Of a stretch of 52,769 nt of DNA, positions 4,438-52,769 are shown in pieces (positions within the stretch are counted from its first letter, which is position 1; each line of letters begins with the position of its first letter). A program made the translations under genes and the position numbers. Under the pieces are notes generated by a model that was given only the letters and a program-made list of their open reading frames with translations, ran no database searches and was not told the DNA's origin. The DNA comes from a virus, in IMG/VR virus record IMGVR_UViG_3300020034_000021, positions 1 through 52,769 of that record; one strand, 5' to 3'.

Positions 4438-5972
4438 GCCGCAGGCTCATCTAGCGTGTTATCGGCTACCGCCTTGGTGGTAGCACCAATTTCCAGCGCC
4501 GCGTCTGCAATCGCCTTAGATTGGTCCTTATCGATTTCTGCCTTGGCTTCTTCGTCCGTTTGCGACGTGCGACCGGCCTTACGTTGAATGTTGCGCATTT
4601 CCGTCCATGACAGTGCGCCGTCTTGCCAGCTCTTGACAACTAGGGCAATTTCTTCGCCGCTCATACGCGATAATTCAAAATCGGTATTCAATTCAAATTT
4701 GATATCGGTTTCAGGTACGTTCATAAACGCAGCACACCATTCCAATGCCCATTGCATAGCAACGGAAACGTTTTTAGCAACTGCTGCTAGAATGGATTCT
4801 TCGGCGGCATTCTCCATGCCGGCCTCTGTGGCGGTACGTTGTACCGTCTTCTGTTCAACAATCTTTGCGCCTAATGCGACCATTTGCCGCTCTTTCGCTT
4901 CCATGCCTTCCTTCGCTGCTGTATTGGGTTCAACTTGAATTAATTCAGCTTTAGCACCGATAGGCAACGGCAAGCCAATGCGCGATCCAAACGGCACCTT
5001 TTTATTTAAAATGGCGTTATACCATTCTGCTGTCAAACCACTAACGACTAGCATGGGTTGACCGACTACATAAATCATTTCTTCGTAGTCAGCGCTGTTG
5101 CAGTAGTGACCAATATTGACGTTGACTAAATCCTCTAGCGGCGCAGGATCAATTGACGCTTCATTATTCTTTGAGCCAACAAATGTGAATGGAATAGAAT
5201 CTAATGGTTTTCCGGCACCATCTTTAGGAAAATAAGGCGCACCAAACTTTTCAAAGTCAGTGCCTTTTGGATCTTTCGCGCGCCACAATTGCACGCTATA
5301 AACATTACTTTCACTCAAACGCAATTCGCGATATTGTGTAGCGTCCTGTGTTTCGAAACCGTCATCTTGTACCGTATAAGTTTCAACTAAGACAACTAGA
5401 CACAAGACCTTTTTAGAACCAAGAACTTTTTCACGCCAATTAATGACATTCTTCGGACCATAGATTGTGATAGTCGGTTGAACGTTACCGTTGGCTAACT
5501 CTGCTTTACTGGCAGCGCGATCAACTGGCGGATAGTCGATAAAAATGCCGCAACGGCCAAATGAGCCGGCGTACCATTCTGCTTCGCGTGAAAGTTGCTC
5601 TGCGCCGATACCGCTACCGTTGCTGTTCGTAACGACATTTTCTAATGCCGCTGGCACTTCAATAACTGGCGCGCGAATAAAAATTTGACCTTGTAGGCCG
5701 AGCGCCGTGCGTTGTGTGACGTTGTAAAAAATTGCACGTTGTATATAAGATCGATAACGCGCTAGATTATCGGTTGATGTATTCGCCGGATCAGGCATTG
5801 GCAAGTAAACAGTTTGTTTACTCTTAACTGCTTCTGCGCCTTTTAAACAGTCGTCAATTTTATCATAGGCATAAAATCGATCTGTTAATTCCGTGCGCTT
5901 AAAACTGATACCAACATTCGGAAGTGTAATAGCAATTCCAGTACCTTGTTCAGTAACAAAAGAAGCAGCCAT
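4434..5972 (-). CDS. Portal protein (DUF4055 type)
   Basis: 512 residues. The N-terminal half has features typical of DUF4055 portals: 'RYRSYIQRAIFYNVTQRT' followed by 'LGLQGQIFIRAPVIEVP', then a 'WYAGSFGRCGIFIDYP' segment, and the middle 'PFTFVGSKNNEASIDPAPLEDL'. The later helical region (AAEESILAAVAKNVSVAMQW) matches the stem/wing part of the dodecameric ring. It sits right after the terminase large subunit (12-bp gap), the usual place for the portal through which DNA is packaged. Confidence 0.9.
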   Translation of the reverse strand: MAASFVTEQGTGIAITLPNVGISFKRTELTDRFYAYDKIDDCLKGAEAVKSKQTVYLPMPDPANTSTDNLARYRSYIQRAIFYNVTQRTALGLQGQIFIRAPVIEVPAALENVVTNSNGSGIGAEQLSREAEWYAGSFGRCGIFIDYPPVDRAASKAELANGNVQPTITIYGPKNVINWREKVLGSKKVLCLVVLVETYTVQDDGFETQDATQYRELRLSESNVYSVQLWRAKDPKGTDFEKFGAPYFPKDGAGKPLDSIPFTFVGSKNNEASIDPAPLEDLVNVNIGHYCNSADYEEMIYVVGQPMLVVSGLTAEWYNAILNKKVPFGSRIGLPLPIGAKAELIQVEPNTAAKEGMEAKERQMVALGAKIVEQKTVQRTATEAGMENAAEESILAAVAKNVSVAMQWALEWCAAFMNVPETDIKFELNTDFELSRMSGEEIALVVKSWQDGALSWTEMRNIQRKAGRTSQTDEEAKAEIDKDQSKAIADAALEIGATTKAVADNTLDEPAA

Positions 5973-7505: not shown

Positions 7506-7962
7506 CCTTTTCGCGCAATTGGTTTTGTTGCTCTAATGCTCGCTTTTCCCAATTTTCATCGCTGCCATGATCCGGCACCAGCATTACATTATTTTGAATA
7601 TTGACAATGTTGCCTGTCTCCTTTGGGTAGTAGTCCATGATTTTCAAATGCATATCAAAATACTTTGCCGCTGCTGCCGGATCAGTCTTCTTTAGTATTT
7701 TATGAGTTTCAAGCGCTTCACGTGCTAAGTCGGCTTTTGTTGGCAAGAATGCAAACTCGCCTTTTTCTTCTTTTAATAACCTTTGATGTTCAATAACAAC
7801 GGGATCGCTAACCCATTCCATAGAAGCACGAAATGCACCATTAGTATCTAATCCAAATATCTCTAACGCAACTTTGAATGCATCATAAGGATTTTTAAGC
7901 AACCCTTCGGCGAACTGCAACTTGCGTTCATCAACGATGACAAATGGCGATAACAGTTTCAT
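7480..7962 (-). CDS. Terminase small subunit (probable)
   Basis: 160 residues directly upstream of TerL and overlapping it. The N-terminal part reads as a helix-turn-helix of the TerS type ('QFAEGLLKNPYDAFKVALEIF' split around Pro, then 'GAFRASMEWVSDPVV'). A helical oligomerisation segment with 'LAREALETHKILKKTDPAAAAKY' style residues follows, and then a disordered tail. These proteins recognise the packaging site and recruit TerL. Identity rests on position plus this layout, not on a diagnostic motif. Its start lies inside the Rz1 reading frame. Confidence 0.7.
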   Translation of the reverse strand: MKLLSPFVIVDERKLQFAEGLLKNPYDAFKVALEIFGLDTNGAFRASMEWVSDPVVIEHQRLLKEEKGEFAFLPTKADLAREALETHKILKKTDPAAAAKYFDMHLKIMDYYPKETGNIVNIQNNVMLVPDHGSDENWEKRALEQQNQLREKVVASVRST

Positions 7963-15054: not shown

Positions 15055-15097
15055 ACCTCATTATCGGTGCGACTGTCAAATACTTAAGTGATCTATG

Positions 15098-15406
15098 TCA
15101 CACTTCGATATCAAATCTTCGATCAAATCCCATGTCCCATTGTCGAAACAATTCTACCTTGCGACAAGCGCGCTTATCAATCGCTTCGGTATCTAATTCT
15201 AATTTATTCGCAACAAACTCCAATGCTGCAATCACGTCGGCCATTTCTTCCTGCAAGCGGTGACGCAAATTCGTGCCGTCCGGGTGCAACAGTCGGTCGT
15301 CAGTCGTCAATTGCAATTTTGGATACTGCAATAGCTTGCCCACAATTTGAAGCAATTCGCCCGACTCTTCCGTGAGTTTAGAAAGGCCGTTGTTTGTCAT
15401 CGCCAC
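15098..15406 (-). CDS. MazG-like nucleotide pyrophosphohydrolase
   Basis: 102 residues from the GTG at 15406 (AAGGA 8 nt upstream). The all-alpha NTP-pyrophosphatase signature is present: 'LTEESGELLQIVGKLL' (E-x-x-E of the first helix) and 'RLQEEMADVIAALEFVANKL' (E-x-x-D of the second), which coordinate Mg2+. These enzymes hydrolyse (d)NTPs or alarmones; in phages they are thought to relieve nutrient-stress signals or clean nucleotide pools. It overlaps the 3' end of the membrane peptide gene 15378-15554. Confidence 0.83.
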   Translation of the reverse strand: MAMTNNGLSKLTEESGELLQIVGKLLQYPKLQLTTDDRLLHPDGTNLRHRLQEEMADVIAALEFVANKLELDTEAIDKRACRKVELFRQWDMGFDRRFDIEV

Positions 15407-17736: not shown

Positions 17737-17918
17737 TACTTGCATTCCTCCAGTGTGACCGTCAGTAATTCGCCTAACTGATCTTTGTCCAGACTTAACA
17801 TAATGCGTTCCAACATAGTGGCGCGCGGTATGACGTTGACTTCGATACAGTTATCTAATTGTACCTCATGATAGACTTGTTCGTCAAGACGTTTTCTAGC
17901 TGCGATGAAGTCAATCAT
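17736..17918 (-). CDS. Small early protein of unknown function
   Basis: 60 residues, starts MIDFIAARKRLDEQVYHEVQ, helical ends with a beta-like 'NCIEVNVIPRATMLERIML' middle. ATGA overlap at 17915-17918. Not recognised. Confidence 0.6.
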   Translation of the reverse strand: MIDFIAARKRLDEQVYHEVQLDNCIEVNVIPRATMLERIMLSLDKDQLGELLTVTLEECK

Positions 17919-18127
17919 ACGTCACTCGGGCCGTGTATGGCGTAGAATTCGTCGCGCACAATGTCAAGCGCTTTATCAGTGTCATCATTGTCAAGCAATG
18001 TCTTGAGTTGACCTATCATGCGCTCGTGCGCATACTGCTTGTTACGATAGTATTCGATCAGGTCTTTCTGATCTTTCATAGCGCGCTTCGCTACTTCTAA
18101 AACAGCCTTGCCATATGCGTTTGCCAT
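17915..18127 (-). CDS. Small helical early protein, first gene after promoter P6
   Basis: 70 residues, helical, charged (MANAYGKAVLEVAKRAMKDQ). RBS GGAG ~10 nt before the ATG at 18127; the promoter at 18158-18186 starts transcription ~24 nt upstream. Not recognised. Confidence 0.62.
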   Translation of the reverse strand: MANAYGKAVLEVAKRAMKDQKDLIEYYRNKQYAHERMIGQLKTLLDNDDTDKALDIVRDEFYAIHGPSDV

Positions 18128-18157: not shown

Positions 18158-18186
18158 AATGTACTACCTATAACGGCACAAGTCAA
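18158..18186 (-). promoter_or_regulatory. Promoter P6, leftward early
   Basis: Minus strand TTGACT (18181-18186), 17-nt spacer, TACATT (18158-18163). The spacer holds GCCGTTATAG, followed by GTAGTA, matching the GTCGTTATAG-ATAGTA stretch of the rightward promoter at 21522-21550. A short leftward frame (42 aa from 18225) overlaps it and is not supported. Confidence 0.7.
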
Positions 18187-18245
18187 TACATCTTTAGGAA
18201 GTGTGTCACATTCCATAAAACTCATTTGGTTCTTTCGGTTTGCCG

Positions 18246-19153: not shown

Positions 19154-19367
19154 CTCCTGTAGCATCAATTAAGCGCGCATTCTTAACTTCATACGGCATG
19201 CAGTTAACCTTGTCACCAACCTGCCATGAGGAACGTTCCTCTAACATGACAATAGTTAGCCCACCTGTGCGCGGCGACTTCGCTATGACCTTGCCGCGCA
19301 GTCCTACGATGACACCACCGGTAAACACAACTTCATCGCCTATCACAATCACAAATGGATTTTTCAT
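19143..19367 (-). CDS. KOW-like beta-barrel early protein
   Basis: 74 residues: 'VIGDEVVFTGGVIVGLRGKV' and 'GLTIVMLEERSSWQVGDKVN'. The pattern G-D-x-V-x-(V/F)-x-G-x-x-x-G-x-x-G-x-V resembles a KOW motif, the RNA/protein-binding strand-loop of NusG and ribosomal proteins. A NusG-like role in processive antitermination is an attractive guess but untested; a generic SH3-like barrel is the alternative. Confidence 0.6.
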   Translation of the reverse strand: MKNPFVIVIGDEVVFTGGVIVGLRGKVIAKSPRTGGLTIVMLEERSSWQVGDKVNCMPYEVKNARLIDATGVDK

Positions 19368-19633
19368 TTTCCTTCCCCTTCCTCTACGATAAGCACGTTC
19401 GCCAGCGCGTTGTTAAAGATCAGCTTGAGGCGTTCTATCTGCACGTCTCGGTCGTTCGTCTTAAGTCCGGTCATTGCCTTGGCCAGCTTCAGGCAATTGA
19501 CGCCGCGCGATACGCGCATGCCGGTCTTTTCAAGCTTCAAACCGCTAATGAGTACCTTGATCCGGTAGGCTTCAATTGCCTGCGGACCTTCGACCGATCT
19601 AAGCTGGCCATTGTCGTTCGTGATGATATCCAT
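19364..19633 (-). CDS. Early protein of unknown function
   Basis: 89 residues, starts MDIITNDNGQLRSVEGPQAI with GAGGG ~7 nt upstream. Alpha/beta with 'VNCLKLAKAMTGLKTNDRDV'. ATGA overlap with the KOW-like gene (19364-19367). Not recognised. Confidence 0.63.
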   Translation of the reverse strand: MDIITNDNGQLRSVEGPQAIEAYRIKVLISGLKLEKTGMRVSRGVNCLKLAKAMTGLKTNDRDVQIERLKLIFNNALANVLIVEEGEGK

Positions 19634-19848: not shown

Positions 19849-19878
19849 AGTATAACGGCGTCGAACGTCAGAAGTAAA
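19849..19878 (-). promoter_or_regulatory. Promoter P7, leftward early
   Basis: Minus strand TTTACT (19873-19878), 18-nt spacer, TATACT (19849-19854). Its upstream half AAATAACGCTTTACTTCT matches AAATAGCACTTTACTTCT of promoter P4 at 20514-20542, showing a common origin. RBS and ATG of the 59-aa gene follow at the right distance. Confidence 0.75.
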
Positions 19879-19889
19879 GCGTTATTTCG

Positions 19890-19909: not shown

Positions 19910-19985
19910 ACATACCGCATTATGTCTTACTTGTCGATTATGTCATCAGCGTTTCGCTGAACGTCATACATTATATCACTACGTT

Positions 19986-20237
19986 ATGTCAAATTGCCGC
20001 CAAAGTAAGACAAAGCCTACGCACACCAGACGCAATAGGAAGCCACAGGCGACGCGATCTTCGACCCGGACCCGCTATAAGGGTCTCAGGCCAAGCGACG
20101 CGCCTTGGCCTATGCCGTTTCGTCTAACTGCCATTCCCGGTCAACATCAAAAACCACGTCCACGTTCCAATCGCGACCGCCAGCCATTCGAGCGGGCACC
20201 GACTGATGAACTTATTGATGACGTTCATGACTTGTGA
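19986..20237 (+). CDS. Uncertain 83-aa basic protein, or a structured RNA
   Basis: The only long frame on the rightward strand inside the left early region. The product is Arg/Lys/Pro-rich (SKTKPTHTRRNRKPQATRSS) with an acidic end (TDELIDDVHDL). There is no Shine-Dalgarno and no clear promoter, and the 3' end overlaps the convergent gene by 13 bp. The DNA folds instead into two back-to-back hairpins: GACCC-GCTATAA-GGGTC at 20069-20085 and AGGCCAAG-CGACGCGC-CTTGGCCT at 20088-20111. I cannot decide between gene and RNA. Confidence 0.3.
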   Translation: MSNCRQSKTKPTHTRRNRKPQATRSSTRTRYKGLRPSDAPWPMPFRLTAIPGQHQKPRPRSNRDRQPFERAPTDELIDDVHDL

Positions 20238-20476
20238 TTCACGTAGCTATAAATATAAGGACAAACTATTTTCGCGGCAGACATGATTGCAGCCTTGCGC
20301 TTTGATTGCGCCAACGTTCGACCGTCAAGCGTATTGATTAACCACATATCATGCTTTGTCTTAACGACATAAGCGAAGGTATAGCGACCATCTCTGCCCA
20401 CATGTTCAACAGCAACCCGGTTTGGCATGCTGCGATTCGGGATCAATTCTACTGCGACTTCTACTAATGTATTCAT
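20225..20476 (-). CDS. First gene of the leftward early operon, unknown function
   Basis: 83 residues from ATG 20476 (GAGGA 9 nt upstream; the ATG at 20485 touches the RBS). Beta-rich: 'EVAVELIPNRSMPNRVAVEH' then 'GRYTFAYVVKTKHDMWLINT' and a basic helix. TSS from promoter P4 would be ~30 nt upstream, making this one of the first phage proteins made. Not recognised. Confidence 0.65.
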   Translation of the reverse strand: MNTLVEVAVELIPNRSMPNRVAVEHVGRDGRYTFAYVVKTKHDMWLINTLDGRTLAQSKRKAAIMSAAKIVCPYIYSYVNHKS

Positions 20477-20513
20477 TGCCGTCATTCCTCTGTTGTGTTG
20501 CTCCAATGAATTA

Positions 20514-20567
20514 AGTATCGGCCAATAACAGCGAGAAGTAAAGTGCTATTTACGTGACGAACGTCAC
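20514..20567 (-). promoter_or_regulatory. Promoter P4 with palindromic upstream site
   Basis: Minus strand TTTACT (20537-20542), 17-nt spacer, GATACT (20514-20519). The spacer contains TCGCTGTTAT. Directly upstream lies the inverted repeat GTGACG-AA-CGTCAC (20554-20567). CGGCCAATAA (20519-20528) is repeated at the divergent rightward promoter (20975-20984). Probably the main leftward early promoter with its operator. Confidence 0.75.
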
Positions 20568-20956
20568 AAATAACACCACCACTATTTTAAAGCTCAATTA
20601 GTAGGCCAGCCAATTCGATGCAAGTCTCTGATCTTGACTCTTTTTCTTATATAAATAGTATATATAGTATAGTAGTAGTATGAGAGAGAGAGAAATTTAT
20701 ATATAGCGTCGACGCATTTATAAGTGACGTTCATGACGTCGTGAAGCGTAGGGAATTTACTCTCTTTTTGGTAGTAATCTCTAGGAAATCTACTATTTCG
20801 ACTTATGCTTAGTAATCAATGAGTTACCCATACTATTTTGGTAGAAATAGTATTTTAAGGTAGATTTTATAAGAAATTTGTTAAGTTATGTCAAGAAAAA
20901 GGAGTCATATTAACGTCATTTGTAAACGTCATTTGTACATCAGGAGACAAAATAAG
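20568..20956. other. Non-coding AT-rich control region, candidate replication origin
   Basis: About 390 bp without a supportable gene between the divergent early operons. It contains a very AT-rich stretch with TATA/TAGTA repeats (20645-20681, 20694-20705), a GA dinucleotide run (20682-20693), an inverted repeat TACTATTT-TGGTAG-AAATAGTA (20831-20852), a GAGTTACCC site at 20821 and a doubled ACGTCATTTGTA at ~20916-20940. The composition resembles a DNA-unwinding element; origin function is inferred. Confidence 0.45.
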
Positions 20957-20996
20957 CTAAAGTTCTATTGACAACGGCCAATAAAGCATTTACAGT
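20957..20996 (+). promoter_or_regulatory. Promoter P0, first rightward promoter
   Basis: CTAAAG (20957-20962), 5 nt, TTGACA (20968-20973), 17-nt spacer, TACAGT (20991-20996). The same CTAAAG-5-TTG-17 geometry is found at 21511 and 22723. The spacer carries CGGCCAATAA shared with the divergent promoter P4. Confidence 0.78.
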
Positions 20997-21018
20997 CTAC
21001 TTACTGAACGACACAAGC

Positions 21019-21052
21019 CTGTAGCGCCTTAGATACAAACCTGTAGCGCCTT
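21019..21052. repeat. 12-bp direct repeat in the leader of the first rightward gene
   Basis: CTGTAGCGCCTT at 21019-21030 and again at 21041-21052, a 22-bp period (about two helical turns), between promoter P0 and the gene at 21084. Suits a dimeric protein binding one DNA face or a leader regulatory site. Confidence 0.65.
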
Positions 21053-21083
21053 TCAACACAACGGACCAATGGAGTTATTTAAA

Positions 21084-21485
21084 ATGTCAATCATCATCAC
21101 ACCGAAGTCAAGAGTGATCGAGTTTGTTCAATTGTGGGCACAAGCTGAAACCGCTGGCAAATTGGCCGCTGCGAACGTCAAGGTTAAAGACTATTTGATA
21201 ACGTCAGTTGACTTTCTGAATAAGCCTATCGCCAATGCGCCGCAATACGTCATGAATGGAACCTGTGGCTTTGCTTGGCTCATTATCAAGCCCGCTAACA
21301 GTCGCTTTGGGAAATGGCTACTGGCGGGTGGGTTAGGCCGGAAGTCGTCCTATGAGGGCGGTGTGCGCGTCTCGATCTACCAGTATGGCCAGTGCATGGA
21401 ACAGAAAGAGGCACACGCACATGCTATGTCGGCTGTGATCGCAGCGGCTGGCCTGCGATGCTATGCTGATTCAAGGATGGATTGA
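21084..21485 (+). CDS. First rightward early protein, unknown function
   Basis: 133 residues from ATG 21084, chosen over the ATG at 21069 because GGAG lies 9 nt before it. 'SRVIEFVQLWAQAETAGKLA' opens a mixed alpha/beta protein with a Gly-rich 'FGKWLLAGGLGRKSSYEGGV' loop and 'AHAHAMSAVIAAAGLRCYAD' end. It resembles conserved early phage proteins of unknown role. Position right after P0 marks it as an immediate-early product. Confidence 0.72.
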   Translation: MSIIITPKSRVIEFVQLWAQAETAGKLAAANVKVKDYLITSVDFLNKPIANAPQYVMNGTCGFAWLIIKPANSRFGKWLLAGGLGRKSSYEGGVRVSIYQYGQCMEQKEAHAHAMSAVIAAAGLRCYADSRMD

Positions 21486-21497
21486 ATTTAATTAAAT

Positions 21498-21550
21498 GTG
21501 ACGTAAGTCGCTAAAGAAAGATTGCAATGTGTCGTTATAGATAGTATTGT
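21498..21550 (+). promoter_or_regulatory. Promoter P1, rightward early
   Basis: GTGACG box (21498-21503), CTAAAG (21511-21516), 5 nt, TTGCAA (21522-21527), 17-nt spacer with GTCGTTATAG, TATTGT (21545-21550). Nearly every element recurs in the same order at 22711-22762. Confidence 0.75.
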
Positions 21551-21583
21551 AACGACACTGAATAACGGAACGGAGCGAATGAA

Positions 21584-21772
21584 ATGATTCAACTTCAATA
21601 CAGACAGACGACCATCATAGGCGAAGCACCAAAAGCGTGGAACGTGTATGCTGAGTCACGAATCATCACAAAGGATATGCGCAAGTTCGCTCTAAACCTA
21701 AATAGAGATGCTATTTATTTCAGCGAATGTCGCTACGTTGACACTAGAAATAGTCCTGAGTTGAAACTGTGA
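21584..21772 (+). CDS. Small early protein of unknown function
   Basis: 62 residues, MIQLQYRQTTIIGEAPKAWN, beta-rich. GGAGCGAA precedes the ATG; TSS of P1 lies ~27 nt upstream. The stop overlaps the GTG of the next gene. Not recognised. Confidence 0.63.
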   Translation: MIQLQYRQTTIIGEAPKAWNVYAESRIITKDMRKFALNLNRDAIYFSECRYVDTRNSPELKL

Positions 21773-22023
21773 GTAAAAGAATACGCGCGCCGCGACGTGA
21801 AGTATTACGGCGCACTAGATACGATAGAACATGGTTTTTTGATCTATCGTGTGGTCACAGTTTGTCAAAATTATACTGTGACGATGTATACAAAACAGCA
21901 AAAACAATGCAATGCCAACCATGTGCGGCGGGTTGGTGTACAAAACATGATATTATCGATGATGCTGAAACCGGCGAACAACGTTGCAGTAAATGTAAAT
22001 TTCCAAATATGAGTAAACTGTGA
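21769..22023 (+). CDS. Zinc-finger-like protein (GTG start)
   Basis: 84 residues starting at GTG 21769, overlapping the preceding TGA. Several Cys/His sites: 'FDLSCGHSLSKLYCDD', 'MQCQPCAAGWCTKHD' and 'QRCSKCKFPN'. Likely two zinc sites. Basic N-terminus (SKRIRAPRREVLRRTRYDR). Possible nucleic-acid binder. Confidence 0.65.
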   Translation: MSKRIRAPRREVLRRTRYDRTWFFDLSCGHSLSKLYCDDVYKTAKTMQCQPCAAGWCTKHDIIDDAETGEQRCSKCKFPNMSKL

Positions 22024-22061
22024 CGTAATTGGCTTTAGTTTTCGCTGTTATACCCGATACT
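22020..22061 (+). promoter_or_regulatory. Promoter P3, rightward early
   Basis: GTGACG (22020-22025), TTTAGT (22034-22039), 16-nt spacer with TCGCTGTTAT, GATACT (22056-22061). It aligns almost base for base with the leftward promoter P4 (CTTTA-TT-TCGCTGTTAT, then CCGATACT). Confidence 0.7.
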
Positions 22062-22094
22062 AGACTCACTGAATCGAAACGCACACAGGAACAA

Positions 22095-22265
22095 ATGACC
22101 ATGAACGCATACGCACAACACAACGCAACCAAGCTTTACGGCAACACACAGAAGCCGGTTCGCGAATATCAGCGCAATGACTACCAGTTGCAGGGTGTCA
22201 AGGCGCACAGCGTTGCACAGACCGCGTTCGCAACGCGCCTTAGTGCTGGCCTGTCGCTGATCTGA
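22095..22265 (+). CDS. Small early protein of unknown function
   Basis: 56 residues from ATG 22095 (AGGA 4 nt upstream); ATG 22101 is an equal alternative. The open frame back to 22029 overlaps promoter P3 and is not used. Contains 'AYAQHNATKLYGNTQKPVRE' and 'GVKAHSVAQTAFATRLSAGL'. Not recognised. Confidence 0.58.
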   Translation: MTMNAYAQHNATKLYGNTQKPVREYQRNDYQLQGVKAHSVAQTAFATRLSAGLSLI

Positions 22266-22299
22266 AGTCTGCCCACACTCAACCACAGGAAGCGAGAAC

Positions 22300-22533
22300 A
22301 TGACAAGCAAACAAAACAGCAAAGAGTACGATGCAGCGCTTGAAGCGTCGCGGATCGCAACGCGCAAGTACAACGTCGCTGTGAAAGATTATCGCGAGGG
22401 TAAGATTACAGACGAAGAATACCTTACGGCGCGCAAGGATTATTATTTGGCGCAGAGTATTTTTGATGACGCACTGCTAATTGAATTGGGAGTTAGCCCG
22501 CCATCGCTTGACAACACATATTCGCGCTGGTAA
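22300..22533 (+). CDS. Small helical early protein
   Basis: 77 residues with AGGAAG upstream of ATG 22300. Helical, charged: 'KEYDAALEASRIATRKYNVA' and 'DEEYLTARKDYYLAQSIFDD', ending in Ser/Pro-rich 'SPPSLDNTYSRW'. Not recognised. Confidence 0.63.
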   Translation: MTSKQNSKEYDAALEASRIATRKYNVAVKDYREGKITDEEYLTARKDYYLAQSIFDDALLIELGVSPPSLDNTYSRW

Positions 22534-22544
22534 TCTAGCGTCAT

Positions 22545-22598
22545 AGATCGGACGCAGCGTTAGCGTCGAAAGAGCGGCACCGAACCCCGCTCCGATCT
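22545..22598 (+). ncRNA. Compact three-way-junction RNA element
   Basis: 54 nt fold perfectly: P1 AGATCG/CGATCT (22545-22550 with 22593-22598), P2 GACGC/GCGTC (22551-22555 with 22563-22567, 7-nt loop), single-stranded GAAA, P3 GAGCGG/CCGCTC (22572-22577 with 22587-22592, 9-nt loop). No unpaired bases at the other two junction strands. No U-tract follows, so it is not an intrinsic terminator, and the CUGAUGA of hammerhead ribozymes is absent. Downstream to 22710 there are AGAGGTT repeats and an ACGCTT-CT-AAGCGT palindrome (22633-22646) but no gene. Confidence 0.5.
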
Positions 22599-22710
22599 AG
22601 GGAGAGTTACAGAGGTTTATAGAGGTTACAAGACGCTTCTAAGCGTTGGCCCCACAACATTTCTAAGGGAACTTGCACGTTATGTTAAATAACTCTAAAT
22701 AATCCAATCT

Positions 22711-22762
22711 GTGACGCAATACCTAAAGAATAGTTGCACAACGTCGTTATAAGATGTATTCT
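22711..22762 (+). promoter_or_regulatory. Promoter P2, rightward early
   Basis: GTGACG (22711-22716), CTAAAG (22723-22728), 5 nt, TTGCAC (22734-22739), 17-nt spacer with GTCGTTATAA, TATTCT (22757-22762). A diverged duplicate of promoter P1. Confidence 0.75.
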
Positions 22763-22795
22763 AAATGCACTTACCAACTGAACGGAATAAACGAA

Positions 22796-22951
22796 ATGAA
22801 CATGTACAGTTTCACATTCGAAGACAGCGCCGACACGATGCAGCAGTTTGATTACAGCATTGCATCTGCGACCGAAATGGTTAAAGCGCGCCGTGCTGCA
22901 TTTGGTCTCAGCACGATCATAACGCATGTTTCTGTACAGGCTGGTCGCTAA
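22796..22951 (+). CDS. 51-aa early protein of unknown function
   Basis: From ATG 22796 (CGGAATAAACGAA upstream): MNMYSFTFEDSADTMQQFDY then 'SIASATEMVKARRAAFGLST'. The frame back to 22754 would lie at or before the P2 start site. Not recognised. Confidence 0.58.
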   Translation: MNMYSFTFEDSADTMQQFDYSIASATEMVKARRAAFGLSTIITHVSVQAGR

Positions 22952-24827: not shown

Positions 24828-24856
24828 CCGGTCAAGCTCCCGAGCTAGGGTTTTTT
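24819..24856 (+). terminator. Rho-independent terminator of the first rightward block
   Basis: AAACCCTAGC / GCTAGGGTTT (24819-24828 with 24844-24853), 15-nt loop, T-run TTTTTT to 24856. Same stem as the leftward terminator at 11620-11651. It closes the transcription unit that includes the SF1 helicase. Confidence 0.92.
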
Positions 24857-24857
24857 C

Positions 24858-24891
24858 TTATGTCATGACGTTATGTCACTACGTTATGACA
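24858..24891. repeat. TTATGTCA / ACGTTATG motif cluster
   Basis: TTATGTCA at 24858 and 24871 and TTATGACA at 24884, with ACGTTATG occurring twice 13 bp apart (24868, 24881). The 13-mer TCACTACGTTATG (24876-24888) is also present at 19976-19988 beside a second TTATGTC cluster. Candidate protein-binding sites. Confidence 0.5.
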
Positions 24892-52295: not shown

Positions 52296-52769
52296 GGCGA
52301 TATTTCCATCAACATGTGGGCAACTTGACCAGCGGTCGCTGTTGATGCAGAACGTACACTTGCCGATAGCACTAAAGCATTTGCATCAAGATCCGATATT
52401 GTAACATTTTTTGGATACGGCGATGTAATTGCCAAGCCAGTAAAATCGGATATAGCATCTTGCCTACCAAGTGAACGCAACGTTGTTGCGTCTATAACTG
52501 TCATCATAGGATTAACGCCGTAACTTCGATTTGCTGCTATAAATTGAGCACTGCTAACAATAGCAGGGTCGGCCATTGTGCCCAATGGACCTAATAAAAT
52601 GCTTACATCGTTCAATGCAGCACTAGTGTTATTTTTAGCAAATTGTACAAAGAATTGAACAACTCTGCCAAGTCGCAATAGTCCAGCGGGAAGCGTTGCT
52701 TGCTTCAAAATAACATCTGTTGTTACAGCGCCTTCAGTATTCAACGTCAAATCAAAAACAAAAAATGTT
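52292..52769 (-). CDS. Head/tail fibre protein, C-terminal part
   Basis: Continuation of the gene that begins at 1105 and leaves the window at its left edge; the reading frame matches across the closing overlap. The first codons seen here are not a true start (TTG only). The C-terminal ~150 residues are beta-rich: 'EGAVTTDVILKQATLPAGLL', 'GRVVQFFVQFAKNNTSAALN' and 'SYPKN'-like turns up to 'TATAGQVAHMLMEISP'. This would be the tip or chaperone-like end of the fibre. Confidence 0.8.
   Translation of the reverse strand, partial: TFFVFDLTLNTEGAVTTDVILKQATLPAGLLRLGRVVQFFVQFAKNNTSAALNDVSILLGPLGTMADPAIVSSAQFIAANRSYGVNPMMTVIDATTLRSLGRQDAISDFTGLAITSPYPKNVTISDLDANALVLSASVRSASTATAGQVAHMLMEISP
52545..52769. 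repeat. Right copy of the map-closing overlap
   Basis: Counterpart of bases 1-224. This copy keeps the fibre reading frame open, so it is the reliable one where the two differ. Confidence 0.85.

Follow-up and report, generated by a model that had tools for sequence, protein, structure and literature searches.

Lytic phages are thought to take over host transcription via very strong sigma-70 promoters. CRP activates sigma-70 promoters from sites centred at -41.5 or -61.5, and the -35 element of SigD promoters is CTAAA; in T4 middle promoters, the box of a phage activator (MotA) replaces the -35 element. The early promoters of phage T4 occur in many copies, are read by host sigma-70 and show further conserved bases, among them an upstream element (PMC2988021), with UP, -35, TGn and -10 elements that are near consensus. 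The sigma-28 (FliA/SigD) consensus, in the form used here, is TAAAGTTT-N11-GCCGATAA, and the proven E. coli promoter aer (TAAAGATA-n11-GCCGACAT) is activated by CRP from -49.5 but not from -41.5 (PMC2859248). The Septimatrevirus-like phages 73 and LPPA15 carry families of paralogous TTGNNN-17-TANNNT promoters before small genes (e.g. TTGACG-N17-TATATT), with near-consensus -35 and -10 elements, a TTCGAAG-like spacer box and a conserved leader. These repeated promoters (L052 35799, 37870, 39977, 41939; L054 40698, 35716, 34154) have the box within the 17-nt spacer, often with CG just before the -10; an analogous leader of relatives is TGAACCATCGAAACGAACAAAGG.

The early promoters described here share with phages 73 and LPPA15 the duplicated TTG-17-TA arrangement with its conserved spacer box and leader, but the latter phages have no CTAAAG, TGTGAC box or sigma-28 fit. 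They differ from T4 early promoters in that the sigma-70 elements are mediocre and are accompanied by elements of a second sigma factor, and from the T4 middle type in that the TTG of the -35 is kept at 4/4 sites. With sigma-28 promoters they have in common the -35 and -10 elements at N11 and a CRP-like half-site upstream; the copy termed L1 below (TAAAGATG-n11-GCCGTTAT) is close to aer. Unlike in aer, the phage cores are interleaved with a sigma-70 core, and the CRP-like box is ~8 bp nearer, at a position that is inactive in E. coli. The preliminary description had taken the rigid geometry to suggest a dedicated activator or an altered-specificity polymerase contact; by itself, such geometry is not unusual, since the rigid 17-nt spacer and a lineage-specific spacer box are also found in named relatives, Pseudomonas phage 73 among them. 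Repeated rigid promoters are already normal for this phage group, and the unusual part is the complete signature of a second sigma factor.

The phage and its early region

The window, i.e. the whole 52,769-nt stretch analysed (a 52.8-kb virus record), encodes a siphophage with terminase, portal, tape measure, J-like tail protein, PolA-type polymerase, primase, Cas4-type exonuclease and helicases. Among named phages, those nearest by terminase, polymerase and primase are XAJ2, Pseudomonas phage 73 (Septimatrevirus), LPPA15 and the like, in most cases with 51-64% protein identity; the phage is a distant relative of Septimatrevirus, and probably lytic as judged from these relatives. No RNA families or tRNAs were found in the window, and searches of bacterial genomes for relatives that could name the host returned none.

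The early genes diverge from an AT-rich non-coding centre: those read leftward begin at ~20.5 kb, those read rightward at ~21.07 kb. Several TGACGT / AACGTCATTTRTAA repeats lie in this centre (20906-20940, 20722-20745) and, in a different arrangement, in a sister phage (contig L002, 31.5 kb; 7895-7945). Two rightward genes serve as landmarks:

21069-21485, plus strand: first rightward gene, 138 aa, function not assigned; 69% identical in L004
23097-24566, plus strand: UvrD-like DNA helicase gene, downstream of P3; 86% identical in L002

The CTAAAG promoter family

Three rightward promoters had been described, at 20957-20996, 21511-21550 and 22723-22762. All three are present as described, with CTAAAG, exactly 5 nt, TTGACA/TTGCAA/TTGCAC, exactly 17 nt and TACAGT/TATTGT/TATTCT; the family is larger, with a fourth copy running leftward (18197-18158, minus strand). 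The sites and the two cores that can be drawn in each are as follows:

20957-20996, plus strand: P1, preceding the gene at 21069-21485; conserved in L002 at 8088
P1, plus strand, sigma-28-type core: -35 TAAAGTTC at 20958-20965, N11, -10 GCCAATAA at 20977-20984; 14/16, best in the window
P1, plus strand, sigma-70-type core: TTGACA at 20968-20973, N17, TACAGT at 20991-20996
21497-21550, plus strand: P2 with TGTGACG box (21497-21503), preceding the gene at 21584-21772
P2, plus strand, sigma-28-type core: TAAAGAAA at 21512-21519, N11, GTCGTTAT at 21531-21538
P2, plus strand, sigma-70-type core: TTGCAA at 21522-21527, N17, TATTGT at 21545-21550
22710-22762, plus strand: P3 with TGTGACG box (22710-22716), preceding the gene at 22797-22951 and the helicase gene
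P3, plus strand, sigma-28-type core: TAAAGAAT at 22724-22731, N11, GTCGTTAT at 22743-22750
P3, plus strand, sigma-70-type core: TTGCAC at 22734-22739, N17, TATTCT at 22757-22762
18158-18210, minus strand: L1, the fourth CTAAAG copy, with TGTGAC box at 18210-18205, preceding the gene at 17915-18127
L1, minus strand, sigma-28-type core: TAAAGATG at 18196-18189, N11, GCCGTTAT at 18177-18170
L1, minus strand, sigma-70-type core: TTGACT at 18186-18181, N17, TACATT at 18163-18158

By 300 dinucleotide-shuffled versions of the window, the pattern CTAAAG-N5-TTG-N20-TA is expected 0.02 times, and by 1000 shuffles of its intergenic DNA 0.001 times, the latter being the comparison proposed in the preliminary description; 4 copies were found, all intergenic and each facing a gene. 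With a site matrix the four copies score 40-49 bits and the next best place in the window 15, and every lineage omitted from the matrix was still recovered above all other places. The earlier reading of duplicated, rigid promoters before small early genes is supported, and CTAAAG is a real element. The columns that are invariant in the four sites aligned at CTAAAG (CTAAAG, TTG, G.C...A.A and TA) fall almost wholly inside two -35 and two -10 boxes; in the spacer element, G20, C22, A26 and A28 are invariant in 4/4 sites. GTGACG and GTCGTTATA, previously assigned to two promoters, both occur in P2 and P3, with a GTGACG-CTAAAG distance that differs by 1 nt; P1, in turn, has a diverged spacer element (GCCAATAAA) at the position of GYCGTTATA in the other copies.

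The four sites are not independent, because three of them are close paralogs. That the family reflects chance or a functionless recent duplication, in favour of which stands the 70% similarity of P2 to P3 over 77 nt (leader included), we regard as hardly credible in view of the number of copies over expectation, their uniform intergenic position and correct orientation, and their retention in the sister phage amid diverged DNA. The sister phage keeps 3/4 copies (P1, P3 and L1) while the surrounding non-coding DNA has diverged: P3 is 95.7% identical over 94 nt and lies there directly before the helicase gene, L1 is found at 5785 (minus strand), and P1 has two bases changed in each -10. L002 has no counterpart of P2 at the syntenic position, which, with P3 directly before the helicase gene, indicates that the cassette was gained or moved among small genes.

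Among 2.9 million viral contigs (IMG/VR), scanned with the full pattern, the P1 pattern and a composite of TGTGAC/TAAAG/YCGWTA, the CTAAAG family was on no contig besides the window and the sister contig. More than one match per contig was obtained for the sister contig only, and composite-pattern matches elsewhere all overlap an open frame of at least 123 residues. In 37 more distant IMG/VR relatives, sigma-28-type sites were not enriched over reversed sequence. No CTAAAG promoters were found in XAJ2, 73, VPv64 and LPPA15; plain sigma-70 sites were found in three of these four.

Further observations concern the promoters' surroundings. A strong plain sigma-70-type promoter (TTGACA-17-TATACT; 19153-19125, minus strand) has neither CTAAAG nor TGTGAC; the CTAAAG set is therefore a subclass of the early promoters. 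Most promoters (P1-P4, L1; P4 is listed below) share a leader box like ACTGAACGGA ~12-20 nt past the -10 (e.g. 21562-21575, 22774-22790). The first rightward gene has two tandem copies of GAYACAARCCTGTAGCGCCTT in its leader (21010-21052); these were not seen in the sister phage.

Fit to sigma-factor consensuses

The four-row CTAAAG alignment was compared with ten bacterial sigma consensuses, each against a null of 3000 column shuffles; of the ten, the sigma-28 consensus was the one taken from a paper (PMC2859248). Sigma-28 gave the best fit of the ten (47/64; null 30.0, sd 2.7; 0/3000 shuffles as high), and the sole other fits above chance were those of sigma-70 (34/48, p=0.0013) and sigma-38 (35/52, p=0.0010). 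The consensuses of sigma 32, 24, 54, B, H and F/G were rejected, with no fit to the aligned quartet by column shuffles. When GCCGATAA was tried at 60 offsets from TAAAG, the canonical 8+11 placement was best (23/32; next 13/32), and at this N11 spacing the -10 match has p=0.0001 by column shuffle, with only 5/8 each in P2 and P3. The -35, TAAAG(TTT), lies in a CTAAAG that is invariant at 4 window and 3 sister sites, and reaches 7/8 in P1 (TAAAGTTC); P1 alone is not genome-wide significant for sigma-28, as 9/200 Markov genomes reach 14/16. The sigma-70 elements are found as well, i.e. a TTGACA-like and a TATAAT-like hexamer 17 nt apart, with individual -10s at 4/6.

Since sigma-28 fits the quartet best, and at canonical spacing, CTAAAG would be a sigma-28-type -35 and GYCGTTATA its -10. 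CTAAAG does not stand alone and is best read as one half of a sigma-28-type pair, with the spacer box as the other half, interleaved with the sigma-70-type -35/-10 pair. This reading is the best supported, if unproven.

A serious rival is that these are plain sigma-70 early promoters, as drawn in the preliminary description, because the -46 to -41 position of CTAAAG would put it in the proximal UP interval (-45 to -37; PMC2613000), where it could be a proximal UP-like alpha-CTD site or an activator box, with GYCGTTATA as a spacer sequence kept by recent duplication or DNA shape. TTG and TA never vary, nor does their 17-nt spacing, with the significant fit given above, the named relatives have clear TTGACA-17-TATAAT families with conserved spacer boxes of their own before small genes, and extra conserved positions are known from T4 early promoters too (PMC2988021). 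We nevertheless hold this rival to be unlikely, though it weighs more than the others: it leaves unexplained that the CTAAAG/spacer-box pair agrees with sigma-28 even in its exact spacing, and the divergent sites L4 and P4 (below) keep TGTGAC and GATAA-type boxes without the TTG/TA core. CTAAAG and/or GTCGTTATA might instead be operators of a phage repressor that silences the early promoters later. GTCGTTA...TAACGAC indeed flanks the -10 of P2, and spacer boxes recur in promoters of relatives (e.g. TTCGAAG in phage 73), but the inverted repeat is not kept in P3, L1 or the sister phage and no dyad is family-wide, which makes such operators very improbable.

Sigma-70 and sigma-28 cores interleaved in the early promoters, and read by host RNA polymerase, are the explanation that we prefer, at slightly better than an even chance. 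Each copy would combine, on one strand, a sigma-70-type TTGNNN-17-TANNNT and a sigma-28 (FliA/SigD)-type TAAAG-N14-GYCGWTAW, with the TGTGAC box upstream at a nearly fixed distance, and the cassette would have been copied to positions before several small early genes left and right of the divergent centre. Sigma-70 would drive immediate early transcription, and sigma-28, where the host has it, would start ~12 bp upstream of the sigma-70 start. Two holoenzymes cannot bind simultaneously, and the mixture of starts would therefore depend on the state of the host. We infer that both cores are used, the second by host sigma-28, on the assumption that FliA is present in the host.

The preliminary description had offered an altered-specificity polymerase contact or a dedicated activator. 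The former was a good guess; the latter finds no candidate in the phage, as the record has no match to the Sigma70_r2 or Sigma70_r4 domains, i.e. no phage sigma factor, searches for FlgM and for a Crp-type HTH domain in the phage found neither, and no MotA-like protein is among the family matches listed. With no sigma factor or Crp-type HTH domain in the phage, host holoenzymes should read these promoters.

The TGTGAC box and divergent members

P2, P3 and L1 each carry a TGTGAC box 14-15 nt before the sigma-28 -35. A scan of the window with the published sigma-28 consensus alone gave 15 matches of at least 12/16, and 3 of these have TGTGA 14-15 nt upstream (L1, L4 and P4). L4 and P4 are outside the CTAAAG set and have TGTGA at the same distance. 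These two and two further leftward promoters are listed here:

15061-15102, minus strand: L4, a divergent member that lacks the sigma-70 core of the CTAAAG set; 13/16 to the sigma-28 consensus
L4 elements, minus strand: dyad TGTGACATAGATCACT, then TTAAGTAT at 15087-15080, N11, ACCGATAA at 15068-15061
22019-22061, plus strand: P4, a divergent member with TGTGACG box; 12/16 to the sigma-28 consensus
P4 elements, plus strand: TTTAGTTT at 22034-22041, N11, CCCGATAC at 22053-22060
20514-20568, minus strand: L2, leftward promoter of the divergent region for the gene at 20225-20506; CRP-like dyad TGTGACGTTCGTCACG, then TTTACT, N17, GATACT
19849-19879, minus strand: L3, leftward sigma-70-type TTTACT-18-TATACT for the gene at 19364-19633, with GCCGTTATA spanning the -10; conserved in L002 at 7068 (minus strand)

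P4 can alternatively be read as TTTAGT-16-GATACT. The ortholog of L4 in the sister phage (L002 2094-2053, minus strand) is TGTGACGTACGTCACTTAAGTTA-N11-GTCGATAA; both phages keep the TGTGA-N6-TCACT dyad, TTAAGT, YCGATAA and the spacing, while the sigma-70-type core of L4 is not kept. A P4-related site (L002 9115-9170) has AAATGTGATTAAGATCACTAAAT and GTCGTTAT, and L2 is conserved at L002 7743 (minus strand) with TGTGACGTTCATCACA. In the sister phage 2/4 such sigma-28 matches have the TGTGA box, the L4 ortholog among them, as against 0/80 matches with TGTGA 14-15 nt upstream in 41 related loci and phages. These matches support the sigma-28 reading independently of the CTAAAG alignment. A weak point of L4 is that its predicted start coincides with the ATG of its gene. 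This short unlisted gene (15054 leftward; L002 ~2045 leftward) encodes a small C-x-x-C zinc-ribbon-like protein (MKNQVKLVLCAFCGQ...), and the coincidence of the two starts suggests a leaderless message.

The TGTGAC box resembles half a CRP site and may bind a CRP-family protein. Full or near-full TGTGA-N6-TCACA dyads occur in L2, L4 and L002 9115; CRP-like dyads are AAATGTGATTAAGATCACTAAA at L002 9112, TGTGACGTTCATCACA at L002 7743 (minus strand) and TGTGACGTTCGTCACG at 20568 of the window (minus strand). The centre of the TGTGAC box is at ~-52 from the start predicted in the sigma-70 frame and at ~-41 in the sigma-28 frame; going by the distances that work for CRP in E. coli, neither frame would be expected to give simple activation. 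An aer-like partnership of CRP with sigma-28 was considered and rejected, as the box is at the distance of the inactive E. coli construct.

It is conceivable that a host Crp/Vfr-like protein binds TGTGA-N6-TCACA in a class II arrangement, and that sigma-70 uses YCGWTAWT as -10 with no real -35. As in class II promoters, the TGTGA centre is ~29.5 bp upstream of GATAAT (L4, both phages) or GATACT (P4), and TGTGA-N27..30-YCGWTAW was observed 4 times against 0.21 expected, besides the dyads given above. Most copies, however, differ from class II promoters in having the left half-site only (P2, P3, L1 and P4, with a poor right half in the first three), P1 lacks the box altogether, GTTATA would make a poor -10 for sigma-70 in this register, and the invariant CTAAAG, TTG and TA are left without explanation. 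We consider this arrangement quite improbable as an account of the family.

As to the interleaved cores, the early programme may run partly from host sigma-28 promoters, with the sigma-70 core and the CRP-like box beside them, such that dosage tracks a motile, cAMP-rich host; this extension is tentative, and we would sooner doubt than expect it. If true, the phage would sense motility and nutrition of the host within the first minutes by way of the flagellar-sigma core and perhaps of a cAMP-responsive site, an unusual link between early infection and the physiological state of a swimming host via a sigma-28 core beside the core of the everyday sigma factor. A literature search, whose coverage lay mostly outside subscription journals, gave no account of a lytic phage whose early promoters are sigma-28-driven.

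Two other sets of repeats were observed in the record. Tandem 13-bp repeats on ACGTTATGTCA (ACGTTATGTCACT) are found at 24855-24891 and 19968-19991, and the unit also occurs singly, scattered over further intergenic gaps (ACGTTATGTTAA at 22677); they are kept in the sister phage, where three copies in tandem follow the helicase gene (L002 11825-11861), and are possible origin iterons or sites of a phage protein. Near-identical 35-base stretches lie close to both record ends (47-81 and 52592-52626, both minus strand); they may represent a repeat of the ends or else paralogous segments.
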